Positions 18,423-30,908 of a DNA stretch of 64,000 bases are shown one piece after another (position 1 is the stretch's first letter; each line of letters opens with the position of its first letter). Location: contig JAEINT010000009.1 in NCBI GenBank assembly GCA_016342745.1, positions 1-64,000 of the forward strand, written 5' to 3'. This DNA comes from Labilibaculum sp. GTDB taxonomy: Bacteria > Bacteroidota > Bacteroidia > Bacteroidales > Marinifilaceae. The notes under the pieces are model-generated. The model had not been told where the DNA came from, searched no databases, and was given only the letters and a program-made list of their open reading frames with translations. The position numbers and the translations under genes are program-made.

Positions 18423-19049
18423 ATGATGCAAAAATTAACTAGTAAAATAACTAGTTATCCAGATAGCCAATATCTAGATAACCAGATAAAAAATAAGATA
18501 CCTGAGTTTAGCTTCTTTAAAAAACCCATATCTAATATCAAACCATACAGAACAATTAGTGTTCTAGATGCTTATAAACTAATAAAAGGACATTGGAATA
18601 TTGAAAGGACTGAAATTTTAAGGCAAATTAAAGAAGGTCAGAGAGCCAGAGCTTTTAAAGCAAATCAATTTAACTATGTCTGCTTCTCTGGAATATTTAC
18701 AAAAAGAAGCGAGAAACATTTTCAACACCATTCAGGTTTGATGGTGTTGGACTTTGATCATTTGTCCGATGTTGATGGAGTTAAAAATATGCTATTAGCC
18801 GATGAGAGCCTAGAAACTGTTCTTTTATTTCGATCTCCATCAGGTGATGGTTTAAAATGGGTGATTACTATCGATATCAGTTTGATGGATCACAAGAGCT
18901 ATTTTAAGGCAGTAAGTAATTACTTGAAACAAACTTATCAACTCGAAGTTGATGCTTCAGGAAAGGACATTGCACGTGCATGTTTTTTGCCTTATGATCC
19001 TCAAGTCTCTATAAACCCTAAATATTTGAGTCATGAAAAAGGTATTTAA
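18423..19049 (+). CDS. BT4734/VirE N-terminal-domain protein (primase-associated)
   Basis: This 208-aa protein matches the BT4734-like/VirE-N domain of Bacteroidota mobile elements: FSGIFTKRSEKHFQHHSGLM, then VLDFDHL near residue 110, LLFRSPSGDGLKWVI near 140, and ARACFLPYDP near the end. It resembles a primase-polymerase-like catalytic domain with DFD and S.D.K.....D motifs. It overlaps the PriCT-2 gene by 17 bp and probably acts with it and VapE as the replication machinery of the island. The first ~60 bp of the coding sequence contain motifs shared with the 149-bp repeats (18436-18487), which suggests autoregulation or part of an origin. Confidence 0.8.
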   Translation: MMQKLTSKITSYPDSQYLDNQIKNKIPEFSFFKKPISNIKPYRTISVLDAYKLIKGHWNIERTEILRQIKEGQRARAFKANQFNYVCFSGIFTKRSEKHFQHHSGLMVLDFDHLSDVDGVKNMLLADESLETVLLFRSPSGDGLKWVITIDISLMDHKSYFKAVSNYLKQTYQLEVDASGKDIARACFLPYDPQVSINPKYLSHEKGI

Positions 19050-19410
19050 TCCACATGCGTGGTTAGAAGCGAACAGCAAACCACAAAAAGTCAAATACAA
19101 ACCACTAACAACTAAGCTTGTTGGTGACTCGTTAGCAAATGTTGAACAATTGGTTTCAAAGATCGAATCATGCAGTATAGATATCACTCAAGGCTATGAA
19201 AATTGGAGGAATATTGGGTTTAGCCTTTCAGAGTCTTTAGGGGAATTAGGACGTAATTACTTTCACAGAATTAGTTGTTTAAATCCTGATTATAGTCCTA
19301 ATAAATGTGATAGACAATATTCAAACTGTTTGAATTGTAGAGGTGGTGGAATTACACTTGCAACCCTTTTTTGGATCGCTAAAACGTATGGTATAATGCT
19401 AAAAAGATAA
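19033..19410 (+). CDS. PriCT-2 (primase C-terminal 2) domain protein
   Basis: This 125-aa protein contains the PriCT-2 pattern: ITQGYENWRNIGFSLSE, then GRNYFHRISCLNPDY and YSNCLNCRGGGITLATLFW. In many elements this domain is fused to the VirE-N domain. Here it is a separate ORF overlapping the upstream gene by 17 bp and lying 3 bp before vapE, which indicates tight translational coupling. The role is inferred to be priming of element replication. Confidence 0.75.
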   Translation: MKKVFNPHAWLEANSKPQKVKYKPLTTKLVGDSLANVEQLVSKIESCSIDITQGYENWRNIGFSLSESLGELGRNYFHRISCLNPDYSPNKCDRQYSNCLNCRGGGITLATLFWIAKTYGIMLKR

Positions 19411-19413
19411 GAT

Positions 19414-20568
19414 ATGACAACTGAAAATACGAACAAAGCAGCACCTAAGAAAACAGTTGCGAACAAATTTTGCTTAACTGAAGAGTATTTGAATGAACGC
19501 TATTTGCTTAGAAATAATATTATAAGTCTTGATATCGAGATAAGAAAGAAAAACAATTCTAAATGGCAGATACTATGTGAGAATTCACTTTATATAGAAT
19601 TGCAGAAAGAAGGAATTAATATCAGCATTGCAAATTTATTGGCTCTTTTAAAATCTGATTTCGTACCCGATTACAATCCATTTGAAAGTTATTTTTTGAA
19701 TTTACCATTATGGGATGGGATTGATCATATCGGAAATTTAGCCTCATTTGTTCATACTAAAGACCAAAATTCTTTTGAATTGCATTTTAGAAAGTGGATG
19801 GTTCGAGTCATTAAGACGGCTATAGATACTAGGTTTTTTAACAAGCAAGCTTTAATATTTGTTCATGATAAACAGAACAGTGGAAAATCAACTTTCTGTA
19901 GGTTTCTTTGTCCGCCAACATTGGGGGATTATATCTCCGAGAACATATCGATTGATAAAGATAGCCGTATTGCTTTGGCAACAAATATCTTGATTAATTT
20001 AGATGAATTAGCAACCCTTTCACGAAGAGATATCAATAGTCTAAAAGCACTCTTCTCAAAGGAGAAGATTAACGATAGGTTTCCTTATGAGCGGAAAGCT
20101 TCAGTTATTCCTAGAAGATGTAGCTTTATAGGTTCTACGAATGAAATGGAGTTTCTTATGGATGAAACAGGGTCTGTTCGATGGTTGTGTTTTGAGATTG
20201 ATAAAATTGATTGGGAATATTCGAAGAAGATAGATATTGACTTGGTTTATGCTCAGGCATATCATCTTGTGAAAACCAAGTTCGATTGTAATTTATCATT
20301 GGATGAGATTAACGAGAATGAAAGGAGAAATCAAGTATTTCAAATTTTATCCGAAGAAAGACAGTTAATTGAAAAGCACTTTACACATGATATATCAGAA
20401 GATCCTAATTCGTTTCGGACTGCAACAGATATCAAGACAAAACTTAGCCAGATGCTAAATATAAACCACTTGAAGGTTGTGAACATTGGTAAAGCGTTAA
20501 AACAACTTGATATACCCAAGAAGAAACTAAATGGCGCATATGGTTATTATTTGGATTGTAAAATTTAG
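19414..20568 (+). CDS. VapE-family helicase-like ATPase
   Basis: This 384-aa protein matches virulence-associated E (VapE) family proteins: YNPFESYFLNLPLWDG, HFRKWMVRVIKTAI, Walker A in HDKQNSGKSTFCRFL, Walker B in NILINLDELATL, and a sensor-like FIGSTNEMEFLMDETGSVRW. VapE proteins are P-loop ATPases related to the SF3/DUF927 helicases that replicate phages and genomic islands. It is the third gene of the replication operon and is followed directly by a terminator and a dense inverted-repeat region, a likely replication origin. Confidence 0.85.
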   Translation: MTTENTNKAAPKKTVANKFCLTEEYLNERYLLRNNIISLDIEIRKKNNSKWQILCENSLYIELQKEGINISIANLLALLKSDFVPDYNPFESYFLNLPLWDGIDHIGNLASFVHTKDQNSFELHFRKWMVRVIKTAIDTRFFNKQALIFVHDKQNSGKSTFCRFLCPPTLGDYISENISIDKDSRIALATNILINLDELATLSRRDINSLKALFSKEKINDRFPYERKASVIPRRCSFIGSTNEMEFLMDETGSVRWLCFEIDKIDWEYSKKIDIDLVYAQAYHLVKTKFDCNLSLDEINENERRNQVFQILSEERQLIEKHFTHDISEDPNSFRTATDIKTKLSQMLNINHLKVVNIGKALKQLDIPKKKLNGAYGYYLDCKI

Positions 20569-20825: not shown

Positions 20826-21556
20826 AGTGGTCATCTAGTTTGTAAACTGGTATAAGACATGTTTAAAACCCCTTTATTAGTGCTGATTATTAAATTTTAT
20901 ATTCTGTATTAGCTGATTTTACTAGTAAAATTGGGAATAACTACTAAAATGATCTGCATTGCTATCTGGATAATCTAGTTATTTAGTATGTAAACAGGGG
21001 TAAGCTATGTTTAAAACCCCTTTATTATAGCTCTATTATTCGGTTGTTATTCTCTGTTTAGACTGATTTTGCTAGTAAAAGTGGGAGTAACTACTAAAAT
21101 GATCTACTTTGCTATCTGGATGATCTGGTTATCTAGTATGTAAACAGGGGTAAGCCATGTTTAAAACCCCCTTTGTTAGTGCTTAATTATTAAATTTTAT
21201 ATTCTGTATTGGCTGATTTTACTAGTAAAATTGTAATGTCTACTAAAATGATCTGCTTTGCTATCTGGATGATCTGGTTATCTAGATACGTTAACTGGTA
21301 TAAGCCATGTTTACAACCCCTTTATTTAGTGCTTGATTATTAAATTTTATATTCTGTATTGGCTGATTTTAATAGTGAAATGGAAATATCTACTAGTATG
21401 ATTTACTTTGTTATCTAGATTATCTGGTTATCTAGTATGCTAACTGGGATAAACCATGTTTAAACCCCTTTATTAGTTTTTGATTATTAAATTTTATATT
21501 CTGAGTTGGCCAATTTTCTTATTGAATTGGGAATACTCCATAAAATGATCAACTTT
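20826..21556. repeat. Five tandem ~149-bp repeats between vapE and the CRISPR array
   Basis: The landmark GTTTAAAACCCC (or a variant) starts at 20861, 21009, 21159, 21309 and 21458, so the period is 148-150 bp. Each unit also contains ATTTTACTAGTAAAAT (a 16-bp palindrome, diverged in the last copies), a TATCTGGAT...TCTGGTTATCTAG block and GTAAACAGGGGTAAG. Copies differ by scattered substitutions. No ORF crosses them. They abut the CRISPR array (the first repeat starts 50 bp later), so they may be a replication/partition region of the island or an extended upstream region of the array. Confidence 0.85.
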
Positions 21557-21605: not shown

Positions 21606-21635
21606 GTTGTGATTTGCTTACAGAATGTATCTTTG
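21606..21635 (+). promoter_or_regulatory. Promoter-like boxes inside the CRISPR repeat (shown for repeat 1)
   Basis: Every repeat contains TATCTTTG at repeat positions 23-30 (21628-21635 in repeat 1), a perfect TAnnTTTG -7 box of the Bacteroidota housekeeping sigma. GTTG at repeat positions 1-4 lies 18 bp upstream, near the -33 spacing. Transcription would start near repeat position 37-38, giving short crRNA precursors for each spacer, as shown for Neisseria type II-C arrays. Confidence 0.5.
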
Positions 21636-24600
21636 ATGTGTTGACTTACAACCGAAATGTGTTTTTTCTCTTGTTCATGTTGTTGTGATTTGCCTACAGA
21701 ATGTATCTTTGATGTGTTGACTTACAACTCTTTTGCTTTCTCAATATTCCATTGAACGTTGTGATTTGCTTACAGAATGTATCTTTGATGTGTTGACTTA
21801 CAACTTTATGATTCCCCATGCGTGGCGATTCCAGTTGTGATTTGCTTACAGAATGTATCTTTGATGTGTTGACTTACAACCAGGGACAAATAAGCTTGCA
21901 AAGGTTGAATGTTGTGATTTGCTTACAGAATGTATCTTTGATGTGTTGACTTACAACTTGCTCTAGTGCAAATTCAATACCTTTTTGGTTGTGATTTGCT
22001 TACAGAATGTATCTTTGATGTGTTGACTTACAACTGTAGCTCTGTTGCGTACTGCGTTAGCATAGTTGTGATTTGCTTACAGAATGTATCTTTGATGTGT
22101 TGACTTACAACAAACGTTGAAGAATTATATGCGCTTAGAGTGTTGTGATTTGCTTACAGAATGTATCTTTGATGTGTTGACTTACAACTAAAAATTCGTT
22201 TAGAAAGAATCTCGCTTGGTTGTGATTTGCTTACAGAATGTATCTTTGATGTGTTGACTTACAACCTGCTAGTGGGATTGATTCGCAATAATCCGTTGTG
22301 ATTTGCTTACAGAATGTATCTTTGATGTGTTGACTTACAACCCTCCATTCATATGAAGCTTACCGCCTAAGTTGTGATTTGCTTACAGAATGTATCTTTG
22401 ATGTGTTGACTTACAACAATATTTATCACCTATTTTTGTTTCAGTACGTTGTGATTTGCTTACAGAATGTATCTTTGATGTGTTGACTTACAACGGTTGC
22501 TTAAAGGTAAAAAAGGAATAGATAGTTGTGATTTGCTTACAGAATGTATCTTTGATGTGTTGACTTACAACCCTTTATACTTGATATCATCAGCAACAAA
22601 CGTTGTGATTTGCTTACAGAATGTATCTTTGATGTGTTGACTTACAACGATCCTACTTGTGTATTCTCTAGTTTTATAGTTGTGATTTGCTTACAGAATG
22701 TATCTTTGATGTGTTGACTTACAACCTTTTTGCAGATGATCCAATTGACTATGGAGTTGTGATTTGCTTACAGAATGTATCTTTGATGTGTTGACTTACA
22801 ACCTTGTATGTAATCATCTGAAGCGATATCGTGTTGTGATTTGCTTACAGAATGTATCTTTGATGTGTTGACTTACAACATTGTAGATAAGTTTTTGAAG
22901 CCAATTGAAGTTGTGATTTGCTTACAGAATGTATCTTTGATGTGTTGACTTACAACGGTATCTCGTGCGGCGGTATCTAAACCCCAGTTGTGATTTGCTT
23001 ACAGAATGTATCTTTGATGTGTTGACTTACAACGGAATATTTGAAAGTGGAACTGCCTTGTTAGTTGTGATTTGCTTACAGAATGTATCTTTGATGTGTT
23101 GACTTACAACTTTAATGCTCGTGATTACGAATTGTATCGTGTTGTGATTTGCTTACAGAATGTATCTTTGATGTGTTGACTTACAACATATCCAGTTATC
23201 TTGCAATCCTTCACCCGTTGTGATTTGCTTACAGAATGTATCTTTGATGTGTTGACTTACAACTCCCATCTCTCCTAACATCACCCTGCATTAGTTGTGA
23301 TTTGCTTACAGAATGTATCTTTGATGTGTTGACTTACAACTTATTAAATTTAGTTTTAAATAAACTGATCGTTGTGATTTGCTTACAGAATGTATCTTTG
23401 ATGTGTTGACTTACAACGTTGGTGGGGTAATGGCATTTGCAGCAGTTGTTGTGATTTGCTTACAGAATGTATCTTTGATGTGTTGACTTACAACGCGATC
23501 ATTCATTCTGTTTTTACTGATGCAGTTGTGATTTGCTTACAGAATGTATCTTTGATGTGTTGACTTACAACCAGGCACTAATAAACTCGCAAAGGTTGAA
23601 TGTTGTGATTTGCTTACAGAATGTATCTTTGATGTGTTGACTTACAACAAAGCCGTTCTTGTCCTTCTCGCCGTCGTTGTTGTGATTTGCTTACAGAATG
23701 TATCTTTGATGTGTTGACTTACAACTTTAATGCTCGTGATTACGAATTGTATCGTGTTGTGATTTGCTTACAGAATGTATCTTTGATGTGTTGACTTACA
23801 ACTTATTAAATTTAGTTTTAAATAAACTGATCGTTGTGATTTGCTTACAGAATGTATCTTTGATGTGTTGACTTACAACGTTGGTGGGGTAATGGCATTT
23901 GCAGCAGTTGTTGTGATTTGCTTACAGAATGTATCTTTGATGTGTTGACTTACAACGCGATCATTCATTCTGTTTTTACTGATGCAGTTGTGATTTGCTT
24001 ACAGAATGTATCTTTGATGTGTTGACTTACAACCAGGCACTAATAAACTCGCAAAGGTTGAATGTTGTGATTTGCTTACAGAATGTATCTTTGATGTGTT
24101 GACTTACAACCTGTTGGGATTCCTGAATTTTCCAATACCAGTTGTGATTTGCTTACAGAATGTATCTTTGATGTGTTGACTTACAACAATTTTAATATTT
24201 TAGAATAAATATAATTCGTTGTGATTTGCTTACAGAATGTATCTTTGATGTGTTGACTTACAACCAAAACGTTGCTGCCAAACTCCATTGCTCCGTTGTG
24301 ATTTGCTTACAGAATGTATCTTTGATGTGTTGACTTACAACGGTTGTTTCCATGTATGATGCTAATGTGGTGTTGTGATTTGCTTACAGAATGTATCTTT
24401 GATGTGTTGACTTACAACTTTGATTATTATTGTACTCCCAGTAGGATTGTTGTGATTTGCTTACAGAATGTATCTTTGATGTGTTGACTTACAACAAATT
24501 TTACAAGTAATGCTCTTGTTTGGTTGTTGTGATTTGCTTACAGAATGTATCTTTGATGTGTTGACTTACAACCTCAATATTTATAGCAGCAACCATATCA

Positions 24601-25188
24601 TCGTTGTGATTTGCTTACAGAATGTATCTTTGATGTGTTGACTTACAACATATTAACGTCAATTTCCAAATCGGAAGTAGTTGTGATTTGCTTACAGAAT
24701 GTATCTTTGATGTGTTGACTTACAACAATATCTTCCGTTTGCTCTTTATGGTTAAGGTTGTGATTTGCTTACAGAATGTATCTTTGATGTGTTGACTTAC
24801 AACCAAATAAGGTCGCATCAAGTGCCCACATAGGTTGTGATTTGCTTACAGAATGTATCTTTGATGTGTTGACTTACAACTCATGTTGTCAGGTAAGACA
24901 GCACCCAATAGTTGTGATTTGCTTACAGAATGTATCTTTGATGTGTTGACTTACAACTTTTAATATTCTAGAATTAACAGGCAGTTTGTTGTGATTTGCT
25001 TACAGAATGTATCTTTGATGTGTTGACTTACAACGGGAGTGAAGAAATTATGTCCAAAATGTAAGTTGTGATTTGCTTACAGAATGTATCTTTGATGTGT
25101 TGACTTACAACTCTAGATACTATTATCTTTCTTCCCTCTGAGTTGTGATTTGCTTACAGAATGTATCTTTGATGTGTTGACTTACAAC
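21606..25188 (+). CRISPR. Type II-C CRISPR array, 47 repeats and 46 spacers
   Basis: The 47-bp repeat begins GTTGTGATTTGCTTACAG and ends GTTGACTTACAAC. Repeat starts run from 21606 to 25142 at 76-77 bp steps, giving 47 repeats and 46 spacers of 29-30 bp. Repeats are nearly invariant, and repeat 2 has a T-to-C change in GCCTACAG. The tracrRNA anti-repeat at 30832-30853 pairs with the repeat's first half, so the crRNA sense is the plus strand. Spacers 20 and 23-26 recur as 28-32. Spacers 4 and 26 are near-identical and differ only at synonymous codon positions. Repeat degeneration at the left end hints that the leader-proximal end is on the right, near cas2, but this is weak. Confidence 0.98.
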
Positions 25189-25242
25189 CTATCAAAGGAA
25201 ATAAGCTCACAACCAGATAGTTGTAAGACACTCTAGGAATGA

Positions 25243-25276
25243 AAAAACCGAGGTCTTTGGGCTTCGGTTTTTCTTT
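25243..25276. terminator. Bidirectional terminator between array and cas2
   Basis: AAAACCGAG pairs with TTCGGTTTT around a short loop, followed by TCTTTTT on the plus strand and preceded by an A run, which reads as T on the minus strand. It can end both the array transcript and the cas9-cas1-cas2 transcript. Confidence 0.8.
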
Positions 25277-25371
25277 TTGCATTCGTTTTTTTGATTCTAA
25301 ATACTAAAATTTGCAACAGATTACTTCGTCGTGCCTCCTCGTAATGACAGAAAAAATTAAGTGATAACAGC

Positions 25372-25710
25372 TTAAAAAAGTTGTAATTGCTGCAATACCT
25401 CGGGTTTCTCCGCTGTTTCTCTGCTATAAAAGAGTTCCATCATGGCAAATTGCTTGTCAGTGATTTTTAAGATGCCTACATGTCCGTGTTCGGGGAGTAA
25501 ATGCTTTACCCTCTTACTGTGCACTTCGGCATTTTCGCGACTAGGACAGGTACGCATGTAGATCGAAAATTGAAACATGGTAAATCCATCTTGTAACAAT
25601 TCCTTCCGAAACTTGCTTGCTGCTTTGCGCTGCTTTTTTGTTTCGGTGGGCAGATCGAAAAAGACCAAGACCCACATGCTACGATATTGACTTAAGGCTT
25701 CGTGACTCAT
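25372..25710 (-). CDS. cas2: CRISPR-associated endoribonuclease/integration protein Cas2
   Basis: This ~112-aa Cas2 starts at [11 protein letters not shown] (25710). A longer in-frame start at 25746 would overlap cas1 more. The core [11 protein letters not shown] places the conserved Asp at residue 19, followed by [20 protein letters not shown] and [14 protein letters not shown], typical of type II-C Cas2. It overlaps cas1 by 32 bp and is the last gene of the cas9-cas1-cas2 operon. With Cas1 it forms the spacer-integration complex. There is no csn2 or cas4, so this is subtype II-C. Confidence 0.95.
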
Positions 25711-26605
25711 AAAAATCGGGGTAAAGGATTTTTCGTCTTTCGCCATCTAAACATTCAAATAGAGAATTGGTCGTTCGGCTTATGGCGACCATCAAAGGAC
25801 TTTTTTTACCAGCAATTTCTACATCTGTGGTTAGCACACTTAACAGTTTTGCTTTTTGTTCGGTAGTTAATTCATCTGTAGCAAACTCTCCTTTGTAATA
25901 CATTGGCAAAACTACTTCGTCGCAAAATGGTCGGTAGGGCTCCATAATATCATCGGCCAAACAATAGGCATTGTACTTGTTTCTATGGAAAATACCCAGA
26001 GTTGGCAACAAACCACTACTTACCAAAGCACGAGCCACAGCTGCTCTTAAAATGGCGTAACAATAGTTTAATTGCGGATTTGGGGCTTTTCCAAAACGCT
26101 CCCGAACAAAATCATCTTCGCCCAAAAGCATCTGCCAATAAACTCTGGCTGCCCTTGCCTCTACATTCTCGCTATCGCCTGATTTTATTTGCGGAACGAG
26201 TGCAAACAAGCGTTTGGCATCCTTACCCAATCGTTCTAACAATTTGGCCTGATTTTCTACTTTTGCTGCTACTGTTTGCGACCACAATTGTTTTTTTAAA
26301 GGCTCCGATGCAGCCACCTGTATTCGAAAACGCTCTGTTTGCAAAGAGTTCCCTGCCAAAGGCAAAAACAAACCAACAGGGTGGTGTTTATCGTTGCAAG
26401 ATATGACTGCCACATTACTCGCAATTAGCTCTGAAAGCAATGCCTGGCTTAAGGTTACCTGTGGGTGATCGAGCACCACCATCCCAATATCTTCAATTGG
26501 AATGCTGGCTATCTCTTTCTTTTCTTTTGGTTGTAGAACTTTTAATTGTTTATCCTGCCTGCGTAAGTAAGCCGGATTTCCAAAATACAAAGTGCGTTTA
26601 ATCAT
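25679..26605 (-). CDS. cas1: CRISPR integrase Cas1
   Basis: This 308-aa Cas1 has the expected catalytic residues Glu149 ([13 protein letters not shown]), His207 ([12 protein letters not shown]) and Glu222 ([11 protein letters not shown]). It begins [14 protein letters not shown], typical of II-C Cas1. It lies 16 bp downstream of cas9 and overlaps cas2, forming one minus-strand operon. With Cas2 it captures prespacers and integrates them at the array. Nothing looks inactivated, so the system may still acquire spacers. Confidence 0.97.
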
Positions 26606-26621
26606 AAACTATATTTTAGTT

Positions 26622-29600
26622 TCACAATACGCTTTCTAACAATTGCTCTTTAGGAGTTGAAAGCTCTTCTCCTACATGTACAATTTCTCCTATGTGGTTA
26701 ATTCTTACTTTAATAATTCCATTTATACTTTCTGGATTTCTTTTTCTCTTAAATGCTATATTAGTAAGTTCTTTACTATCTAAGATCTTTGTCTCAAGAT
26801 GATGTCTAAACCAATAGTCTTTATTTCCAATTTTCTGAACACGATAAAGATTTGGGCTAATCGATTTTACATTCTCAGGATTTAATAAATCAATTTCATT
26901 TGGATCAAAATCTTTCGAAGGAAAAACAAAGTATTCGTTTTGCTTCATTGTAAATAAAAATTGCCATCCTTCCTTTTCTTTGTACTTAGAGTTGACAATA
27001 GGTAGGCCAGCATTTACACGAGCAACAGCTTCGTAAAAAGAAACTACCTGTTCTTGCAACTTTCCTTTTTCATCTTTATAAATAGCTACATGGTGATTGT
27101 TACCTGTACTTACAAAATCAACAGGCTGGGTTTTGCCATTGCTATTCAATATTTCATTGCCATGTTGATCTTTTTTATCGTGTATAGCCTCTGCATTACT
27201 AACACCACTAATGCTTACCCTTTTTATGGCAATTCCTTTTTCTTCATTCAACCAAATTGGTCTTTTAGCCAAATTAGAGAATGCCTCTTTTGCATTTCCA
27301 TTGTATTCGGCCAAACGTTCTTGTAAAATTCTTTTTATTCCCGTATCAATTACTTTATCAATTTTTAAATCGGGACCTATCTCTTTTCTAATTGTAAAAT
27401 TATCTACAGTATCCTGAATTTTTATTTTCTCAGGCAACAATTCAGTTTTTGCTTCATCTAAATAAATAGGATTTTTGGCTGGCGTATTTTTACCTGCAAA
27501 TGCCTTTTTAGGGTCGTTTCCAAATTCAGCTAATCGTTTTAATAAAGCAACCCGATATTTAGGCTTTGTTACCTTATTAATTGTTTCAATATCTAATTTG
27601 GCATTTGGCTTAATCTCTTTAACAACTTGTTCCTGTATCTTGCCATAAACCGTTTCTTTGTGCAATTGGCCTCGTGGTGTTAATTGTACCTTCTCAATAA
27701 ACTGATCATTCCCTTTTTGTTTAATGCGATTTTTATTCTTGGTTACGACCTTATTTTTAGCTTTAATCGAAATCAAAACACATTCCAAATGATTTTTCGC
27801 TTCTATTCTAAAGTTAGCAAGAGGTGCAATAAACTTTCGTTTCGAATTCCCATTTTTGGTTTCAAACACCTTGGTTATTTTATTACGAACACCGTACAAA
27901 TCACTTTCCTTTCTTCGGGATGCGTGCAAGTTGTTTAAATACTGAACATGATCGTAAGTGGTAAAAGCAACCGTAAGCGCATCCATCGCATGATGTCGAT
28001 GATCATTTCGCTTGGTCCAATCGATAATTTGTTCGATTTGTTTACCCTCTTTACGCTCTTGCATTTCGGTTAAACCCAAAGCACGATATTTAGGCAAATT
28101 GAGTTCTTTCATCACATTAATCAAATCCCAATCTTCTCGCAGTTTATCTGTAATGCTTCCAGTAGTTGTATTTACTGTTCGAATTACTTCAAATAACATT
28201 TGTTTTGCCTTTTTAGCAATGTATTGGCTGTTTCGCAAATCTCTCTCAATAAAACCATCGGGCAAGTCCATTTCTTCCATTAACAGTTTCTTATACTTGC
28301 CTTTCGATATCTTACCTGCTTTGTATAAGCTCTCTACTCGATTCTTATAATTCTGCACATCATCAGAATAAGTGTTTGTAATAAAATCGATGGCTGTAGA
28401 ATCGGCCTTAGCCAAATTCACATTTCGGTAAGCCAATGTTTTGTTCGAAAAAGAGTCATCGAATAAAATTGCTTTGGGAATGATATGTTCGATATCAATT
28501 TCCTTTGAAAATAATTTGTCTTTCGGAATGTATTGATTGGTAAATAAGGTCTTATAACCTGTTTCACTCAATTCTTCATAAAGTTTATAGCGAATAATAT
28601 CGTTTCTAGTTGGGTTCTTTAAACCAAAATCTTGTTGCAATAATTTTCTTATTCCATCGTGCTTGGTTTTTGCTGCATTAATATTTGTTGTTGCAGTAGC
28701 TCTTTCTTTTGCCGATTTTTTCAATTCACGAGCCAATTCAACCCGAACTTCATCTGGCTTACCATAGCTTTCAATCACCTGATTTACCAAATTTACCATT
28801 TGGTTTAAAATTTTCTCAACCACAGGATTTCGCAAGCTGTTTTTAGGTAGTAATGTTAAACTATCTTTTAATGTTCGACTTGCTAATTCTTCTTTATTTA
28901 AGGAATGTGAGTGATTGTAACCAACCATTTCGCACGCCCCCACAATTTCCTCTTCTTTCTGCCTTGAAAATGGATGACCTGCTTTTAAATAAGGTAGAAT
29001 CTTCTTAATAGCTCTAGCACTTAAACTTCCATGGTCATCTTGTAAACTTACATTCGCCAACATATTGGCATATTCTGGTTTAAATCCATATGCCTTACAC
29101 AATTTTTTCTTTAAGGAAACATTTGAGTTACCATAAACCAATTTATCTTCTTCACTAATTTTGCCATCGTCCTCGGCAGAGTATAACAAATGCCACAGTT
29201 GGTAAGAAGTTTGCTTATCAAAATCATTTCCTTCTATATCTGAATTGAATTCTAATATTGTTGGATCAATACCAATTTGTGGAAAAACCTGCTTTAATTC
29301 CTCTTTAATTTCAATTGCGGTTTTTTTAGCCCAATCGAAACCATATCCCTCAAAATCTGCAATTTGATGGTATACATTATACAAAGCCTGATTGGTTCTA
29401 TTTCCCTCAATTCCTTCTTTATAATTAAGAATCCACTCCTTTTTCGCTAATCCCAACACTTTTAAAACTTCATCGTGCTTAAGATTCCCTCTTAGGTTGA
29501 GTTCATCAAACAAAATTTGTTTCGGATCCTCATCTAAAACAGTAACTTCTTTCGAAGCTTTATTCTGTGCCTCAATATTATTTAAGATTTGCCAAATTTT

Positions 29601-30791
29601 AAATTCCTGAAATAAGGGGGATGATTTAGGAATGGCTTTATGTTGTTTCTCAAATTCACAATTGCTAATTAAATGCTTTTGCGATTTTAATTTCCTCTGG
29701 TAAAAAATAACTACATCTCTAATTTCCTCTTTTACCTCTGCGGTGAGCTCAGGATAATGTTTAGCTTGAGTTTCCCATATTTGTTCAAACTCATCTAAAT
29801 AATCCTGACGATAAAAAACCTGATTCTTTAAACTGGTGTGAAAATTATTTTGTAATTGTCGATACAAATTTTGCCCAACAGTTTCTTTTTCAAAATAAAG
29901 TTCTTTGCTTCTATCACTTATTGCGCCTAAATAACCACTCGATTTATTTAGGTTATTATTAATTTCCACAAATACATAAGCTACAACATCTAATGGTAAT
30001 TTTGTAGTAAGCCCGTCAGCTCTCCACTTATAATGCTGCTTTTTAACTTCTTCACGTTTCCCTTTGTTCTCTGCGGTGTAAATCTGATGTATTGCTAAAA
30101 AGAGTTTTCTACTATTTTGCTGCCCTTGCCCTTCTAGCTTTTTATACAATTCTTCATTCAATATTTCAGGATAGAATTGCTTCTGAAAATTCCAAATGGC
30201 ATCAAATTCATTTTGCAAATCAGAACGATAAAATTCAGGGATATACTTTTTCCCATCTTCTAGTAGTTTAAATACAAATTGTCCAGGGGTTAGTTGATTA
30301 TCGTAGAGTTCTTTTGCAATAGCCATTCCATCAATTAAACTTCCTTCCTCTTCATTCTTTGCTTTACGGCTGCTTTTGTATCCTCTTTTTTTATTTATGG
30401 CAAGTAAGACTCTAGCGATTTCCGTCTTTTCAATTTTATCAACAGCAGCTTTTGCTCTCAATTTACACGTTTCATGCGTAGAGCTATTTCCTTCTTCTGT
30501 TAGTATTGTTTCGTCATTTATAAAAGCAATAGATTTTAGTATTTCAATAAGGTTAGCTCTTCTTTGTTTAAATCGTTGCAAGTTTCTTCTTGCCCCACGC
30601 TTTAATGTACGATCTGCGTTTATAGACAATGGTCTTCCTTTCTCGAAATCAGTTTGTTCATCTGTAGAAAGAGGATTAACCCTAACGCCTAGTTTAATGA
30701 TTGAAGATTCTTCATTTTTATTTTCGGCCTCATTAACCAAAGCCCAACCAATCGAAGCTGTTCCTAAATCAAGTCCTAAAATTTTCTTCAT
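26622..30791 (-). CDS. cas9: Type II-C CRISPR RNA-guided endonuclease Cas9
   Basis: This 1389-aa Cas9 has RuvC-I with Asp8 (ILGLDLGTASIGWAL), an arginine-rich bridge helix (RTLKRGARRNLQRFKQRRAN, ~60-80), RuvC-II near residue 685 (VRVELAREL), an HNH domain with His769 in DIEHIIPKAILFDDS, and RuvC-III with HHAMDA (His934, Asp937). All catalytic residues are present, so it should cut both strands of targets. The length fits the large Bacteroidota II-C Cas9 group. The gene is divergent from the tracrRNA: the tracrRNA -33 box lies next to the cas9 start codon, so the two promoters share a short region. It is the first gene of the cas9-cas1-cas2 operon. The PAM cannot be read from this sequence. 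Confidence 0.98.
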   Translation of the reverse strand: MKKILGLDLGTASIGWALVNEAENKNEESSIIKLGVRVNPLSTDEQTDFEKGRPLSINADRTLKRGARRNLQRFKQRRANLIEILKSIAFINDETILTEEGNSSTHETCKLRAKAAVDKIEKTEIARVLLAINKKRGYKSSRKAKNEEEGSLIDGMAIAKELYDNQLTPGQFVFKLLEDGKKYIPEFYRSDLQNEFDAIWNFQKQFYPEILNEELYKKLEGQGQQNSRKLFLAIHQIYTAENKGKREEVKKQHYKWRADGLTTKLPLDVVAYVFVEINNNLNKSSGYLGAISDRSKELYFEKETVGQNLYRQLQNNFHTSLKNQVFYRQDYLDEFEQIWETQAKHYPELTAEVKEEIRDVVIFYQRKLKSQKHLISNCEFEKQHKAIPKSSPLFQEFKIWQILNNIEAQNKASKEVTVLDEDPKQILFDELNLRGNLKHDEVLKVLGLAKKEWILNYKEGIEGNRTNQALYNVYHQIADFEGYGFDWAKKTAIEIKEELKQVFPQIGIDPTILEFNSDIEGNDFDKQTSYQLWHLLYSAEDDGKISEEDKLVYGNSNVSLKKKLCKAYGFKPEYANMLANVSLQDDHGSLSARAIKKILPYLKAGHPFSRQKEEEIVGACEMVGYNHSHSLNKEELASRTLKDSLTLLPKNSLRNPVVEKILNQMVNLVNQVIESYGKPDEVRVELARELKKSAKERATATTNINAAKTKHDGIRKLLQQDFGLKNPTRNDIIRYKLYEELSETGYKTLFTNQYIPKDKLFSKEIDIEHIIPKAILFDDSFSNKTLAYRNVNLAKADSTAIDFITNTYSDDVQNYKNRVESLYKAGKISKGKYKKLLMEEMDLPDGFIERDLRNSQYIAKKAKQMLFEVIRTVNTTTGSITDKLREDWDLINVMKELNLPKYRALGLTEMQERKEGKQIEQIIDWTKRNDHRHHAMDALTVAFTTYDHVQYLNNLHASRRKESDLYGVRNKITKVFETKNGNSKRKFIAPLANFRIEAKNHLECVLISIKAKNKVVTKNKNRIKQKGNDQFIEKVQLTPRGQLHKETVYGKIQEQVVKEIKPNAKLDIETINKVTKPKYRVALLKRLAEFGNDPKKAFAGKNTPAKNPIYLDEAKTELLPEKIKIQDTVDNFTIRKEIGPDLKIDKVIDTGIKRILQERLAEYNGNAKEAFSNLAKRPIWLNEEKGIAIKRVSISGVSNAEAIHDKKDQHGNEILNSNGKTQPVDFVSTGNNHHVAIYKDEKGKLQEQVVSFYEAVARVNAGLPIVNSKYKEKEGWQFLFTMKQNEYFVFPSKDFDPNEIDLLNPENVKSISPNLYRVQKIGNKDYWFRHHLETKILDSKELTNIAFKRKRNPESINGIIKVRINHIGEIVHVGEELSTPKEQLLESVL

Positions 30792-30795
30792 GGCT

Positions 30796-30827
30796 ATTGT
30801 ATGTTTAATTTATTGTTTATATTTTTG
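30796..30827 (+). promoter_or_regulatory. tracrRNA promoter
   Basis: TTG (30797-30799) lies 20 bp before TATTTTTG (30820-30827), a perfect Bacteroidota -33/-7 pair. The predicted start, ~6-8 nt after the -7 box, coincides with the first bases of the anti-repeat at 30832. Confidence 0.7.
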
Positions 30828-30831
30828 AAAT

Positions 30832-30908
30832 ACATTTTGTAAGCAAATCACAATAAGGATTATTCCGTTGTGAAAACATTCAAAGCGGCTTTAACGAGTC
30901 GCTTTTTT
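30832..30908 (+). ncRNA. tracrRNA
   Basis: The anti-repeat (ACATTTTGTAAGCAAATCAC, 30832-30851, continuing AA) is complementary to the first ~24 nt of the CRISPR repeat, with only two G-U wobbles. A tail with GGATTATTCC and a final hairpin (AAAGCG / CGCTTT, about 30881-30905) followed by TTTT forms a rho-independent end. The RNA is ~77 nt and is transcribed away from cas9. CACAA in the anti-repeat could also pair with TTGTG at 30867-30871 within the same RNA, an alternative fold. It should pair with crRNAs, be processed by RNase III and load Cas9. Confidence 0.9.

Follow-up and report, generated by a model that had tools for sequence, protein, structure and literature searches.

Repeated capture of one target site has been described for several CRISPR-Cas systems. 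In the type I-C system of Legionella, one protospacer was captured independently twice (PMC5071653), and in the type II-A system of S. mutans spacers match the related phage M102 rather than M102AD (PMC8265633). In the type II-C system of Flavobacterium columnare, a member of the Bacteroidota, the array has its leader on the 3′ side, with the GTTGT end of the repeat distal to the leader and the PAM downstream of the protospacer (PMC8092290). The locus described here lies in a window of 64,000 nucleotides, i.e. the whole stretch of Labilibaculum sp. DNA that was analysed (contig JAEINT010000009.1, positions 1 to 64,000). It resembles the Legionella and S. mutans systems in that a single site, or sites of related phages, were sampled more than once, with a few mismatches. 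In contrast to both, the two versions stand together in a single natural array and are distinguished by four differences that are synonymous in one reading frame. Repeated sampling of one site is ordinary, known CRISPR behaviour (PMC5071653, PMC8265633), of which this array is a tidy new example.

The pair consists of spacer 4 (CAGGGACAAATAAGCTTGCAAAGGTTGAAT, 21881..21910, plus strand) and spacer 26 (CAGGCACTAATAAACTCGCAAAGGTTGAAT, 23572..23601, plus strand), which have the same boundaries and the same orientation and are identical at 26 of 30 bases. The mismatches, at positions 5, 8, 14 and 17 only, all fall on third codon positions of one open frame (+3), where the codon pairs GGG/GGC, ACA/ACT, AAG/AAA and CTT/CTC leave the peptide GTNKLAKVE unchanged. 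An earlier note, made from the sequence alone, had given the coordinates, lengths, spacer numbers and difference positions exactly, and its statement that both spacers translate to GTNKLAKVE with all differences at one codon position is borne out in frame +3. We propose that two diverged copies of a coding gene, probably carried by two related phages or other mobile elements, each served as the source for one capture of the same 30-bp site, and assign this reading a probability of about 0.75. The CRISPR-Cas9 locus would first have taken up the site as spacer 4. A diverged copy of the same gene, probably in a related phage or other mobile element, would later have given rise to spacer 26, and recombination between repeats would have duplicated a part of the array and thereby copied spacer 26 as spacer 32.

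The locus encodes, on the minus strand, Cas9 (26622..30791, 1389 amino acids; RuvC_III 3.5e-57, HNH_4 2.3e-15, TIGR01865 5.5e-148), a type II Cas1 (25679..26605; cas1_NMENI model TIGR03639, 301.8 bits) and, adjacent to cas1, Cas2 (25372..25746); all three genes are intact. Neither csn2 nor cas4 was found in the operon, and the operon strand has no open reading frame of at least 100 amino acids in the interval from cas2 to the array or directly upstream of cas9. The next open reading frame encodes a response regulator. Between cas9 and this next gene lies a candidate tracrRNA (30827..30908, plus strand) with an anti-repeat (30827-30854), a hairpin and a terminator, and it is conserved upstream of cas9 in two relatives (G043 and G044, Cas9 72% identical). 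Because the plus-strand repeat pairs through its 5′ part with the anti-repeat (duplex of -35 kcal/mol), the plus strand is probably the crRNA strand. Gene content and repeat together fit a type II-C-like system. The locus resembles that of F. columnare in its cas9-cas1-cas2 set, in the GTTGT at the leader-distal end of the repeat, in its 30-bp spacers, in the position of the leader at the 3′ end of the array and in the tracrRNA, here a candidate, beside cas9; the repeat is 47 bp compared with 36 bp in F. columnare (PMC8092290). In two other relatives (G079 and G073) the cas9 matches (L082 and L083) contain an in-frame stop codon, TAG and TAA, respectively, which suggests that these genes are broken or damaged by sequencing.

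The array (21606..25188, plus strand as the probable crRNA strand) comprises 47 repeats of 47 bp and 46 spacers of 29-30 bp, 41 of which are distinct. The repeats are identical in 46 of 47 cases and repeat 2 carries one change, corresponding to about one substitution per 2,209 bases of repeat sequence (47 x 47). Spacers 28-32 (23726..24063, plus strand) are identical, in order, to spacers 20, 23, 24, 25 and 26 of a source block formed by spacers 20-26 (23111..23601, plus strand), with 0 changes between the copies. The block reflects segmental duplication, accompanied by the loss or gain of units, and not a series of new captures. Across 23111-24063, spacers 21, 22 and 27 were lost or gained between the block copies, and the array has been rearranged by recombination. 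Spacer 32 (24034..24063, plus strand) is a letter-for-letter copy of spacer 26 that the earlier note, correct in its listing of spacers 4 and 26, had overlooked. As it lies within the five-spacer duplication, the number of independent acquisitions is two rather than three.

A 150-bp AT-rich unit is repeated in tandem about 4.9 times, in degenerate form, at 20828-21556, and these copies end just before the leader-distal end of the array; the unit was not found elsewhere in the genome. Genes typical of a mobile element (BT4734-like, PriCT-2 primase and VapE-like) adjoin the CRISPR locus at 18423-20568. The array repeat, searched with up to 3 mismatches, is absent from a genome labelled as the same species (G001), and thus the array is not a fixed feature of the species.

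The leader is at the right end of the array (25189..25308, plus strand). From position 25189 onward the flank is conserved with the arrays of the two relatives G043 and G044 (95/116 and 92/114 aligned bases identical; z 15.5 and 13.1), and it contains a terminator-like hairpin with poly-A/poly-T. The left flank does not match either relative (z 0.2 and 1.0), and in both relatives degenerate repeat remnants are present at the left array end. With this polarity, spacer 1 would be the oldest and spacer 46 the newest, so that spacer 4 was probably captured before spacer 26. Since the polarity is that of F. columnare type II-C (PMC8092290), the PAM would be expected after the shared GAAT end of the two spacers. 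Their identical boundaries and orientation suggest that both captures were positioned by a common PAM on the 3′ side.

The similarity of spacers 4 and 26 is not due to chance: their local alignment score is 22, whereas the highest score reached by 60 shuffled spacer sets is 15. Among the other non-identical pairs of the array, none is comparable. Spacers 34 (24188-24217) and 44 (24958-24987) have an AT-rich stretch in common, TTTTAATATT[T/C]TAGAAT, with a weak score of 16 compared with the shuffled maximum of 15; they are possibly a second related pair, and base composition is the more likely cause. Among the 190 distinct spacers of this and six related arrays, one further near-identical pair was detected, namely spacers 6 and 8 of the related II-C-like array of G073 (L094), a genome of the same order: TGCCTATACCTGTGCTTTCAAGTGTTGGTA in one and ...GCTA in the other, with a difference at 1 of 30 bases. 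In contrast to spacers 4 and 26, these two carry only one difference and stand only two positions apart, and a recent duplication or a point variant fits them as well. According to a rough hand estimate with 41 distinct spacers, a phage of ~45 kb and an assumed TAAA-like PAM frequency in AT-rich DNA, giving ~1,000 sites, ~0.8 same-site pairs are expected for one phage lineage and ~0.08 for ten lineages. Therefore, neither a hot spot nor a special mechanism is needed to account for the pair.

The source of GTNKLAKVE, which the earlier note had suggested looking for in phage and metagenome databases, was searched in IMG/VR, INPHARED phages, PLSDB plasmids, GTDB species genomes and the host assembly, and none of these contained a credible protospacer of spacers 4 and 26. 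In IMG/VR, the full nine-residue degenerate pattern had 0 matches. Two partial patterns matched 47 loci, all in unrelated contexts and with at least 6 mismatches to the spacers, and a pattern free at all wobble positions had one match, out of frame in a phage gene and with 11 mismatches. In GTDB genome contigs the two full-length patterns, nine-residue degenerate and free at all wobble positions, had 0 and 2 matches, the two matches being proteobacterial and with 10-12 mismatches. A stretch with 22 of 24 bases as in spacer 26 over TNKLAKVE (L026) belongs to a large protein on an unrelated phage contig; by our own estimate about one such match is expected by chance in the collection that contains it. 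No credible protospacer was present in the own genome or in the genus, family, order and class samples. The only weak matches were one in G012, which is located at the 3′ end of an oppositely oriented gene (L007) and is not a protospacer, and one with 2 mismatches in an order-level genome (G316), which is at a contig end and does not preserve the peptide. Nothing credible was obtained when INPHARED phages and PLSDB plasmids were searched with spacer 26, or when the 41 unique spacers were run against phages and 60 relatives. When union patterns over eight other spacers were run against IMG/VR, the only matches were those of spacer 39 to a marine-type phage gene (25 of 30 bases), which we judged to be chance. 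The own assembly contains no full-length spacer match elsewhere; thus, self-targeting is not the reason for the spacers.

The main alternative, which we consider rather unlikely, is that a single mobile element, carrying the gene in two diverged versions (paralogs or internal repeats), was the source of both spacers. Genes of both kinds are known from phages and plasmids, and the spacer sequences fit one such element as well as two. However, spacers 4 and 26 stand 22 positions apart, which suggests captures well separated in time, even if a long-lived element would still be compatible with this distance. The earlier note had attributed the pair almost certainly to two diverged viruses or plasmids. 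Its two captures of one homologous site hold, whereas its certainty about the sources was too strong, because paralogs on one element fit equally and the searches yielded no protospacer. The sources were probably two distinct viruses or plasmids.

It is improbable that spacer 26 was acquired by priming, in which spacer 4 would have imperfectly recognised a diverged virus and Cas9 cutting would have favoured uptake of that site from copies left uncut. The mismatches lie 14, 17, 23 and 26 bases from the presumed PAM end and the 13 bases on the PAM side are identical; spacer 4 might therefore retain activity against the second invader. Priming-like patterns have been reported for type II-C in F. 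columnare (PMC8092290) and for type II-A in S. mutans, where spacers that retain 17-18 identical bases on the PAM side are still able to interfere (PMC8265633). However, reported priming takes spacers around the target and not from the cut site itself. Moreover, four random positions would all fall within the first 17 of 30 with a probability of ~0.09, and codon constraint would look alike. If it were true, self-site priming in a type II-C system would make the array a record of memory updating rather than of two chance captures.

Quite improbable, too, is a site that is non-coding or coded on the other strand, in which case the DNA would still be homologous and the synonymy in GTNKLAKVE partly a coincidence. 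On the reverse strand, the frame that has these wobble positions is also open and ranks second, with STFASLFVP in one spacer and STFASLLVP in the other. Frame +3 accounts for all four differences, whereas this reverse frame requires an F/L replacement, a single and conservative change; the remaining frames contain one to four amino-acid changes or a stop. When four random changes were simulated in spacer 4, they fell into one residue class modulo 3 in 2.2% of cases and were all synonymous in some open frame in 2.8%, while a single codon position combined with full synonymy occurred in 0.8%. We therefore regard the site as likely but not certainly protein-coding, with a chance probability of ~0.01-0.03. 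The claim of the earlier note that both spacers target the same protein is likely in the same sense, as it depends on one frame.

That spacer 26 originated as a copy of spacer 4, by duplication within the array and later substitutions, is very unlikely: although a segmental duplication did occur (spacers 28-32), it left its spacers unchanged, the neighbours of spacers 4 and 26 are unrelated, four or more changes in 30 bp have a probability of ~1e-9 at the substitution rate of the repeats, and mutation within the array would ignore codon positions. The earlier note had named such a copy as the case that would speak against it, and this case is rejected by the nearly invariant repeats and the unchanged duplicated spacers. 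Its proposal of independent acquisition is supported by the shared ends and orientation, by 4 differences in 30 bases compared with about 1 in 2,209 in the repeats and by the distance of 22 positions. Two independent captures of one homologous site are thus well supported, and no other reading of the pair is reasonable.

The spacer pair leaves the general view of CRISPR unchanged. It is a clean natural record in which one host lineage appears to have met diverged versions of one gene twice and captured the same site. The pair could serve to trace this host's virus group, and it offers a small test case for whether type II-C systems update mismatched spacers.
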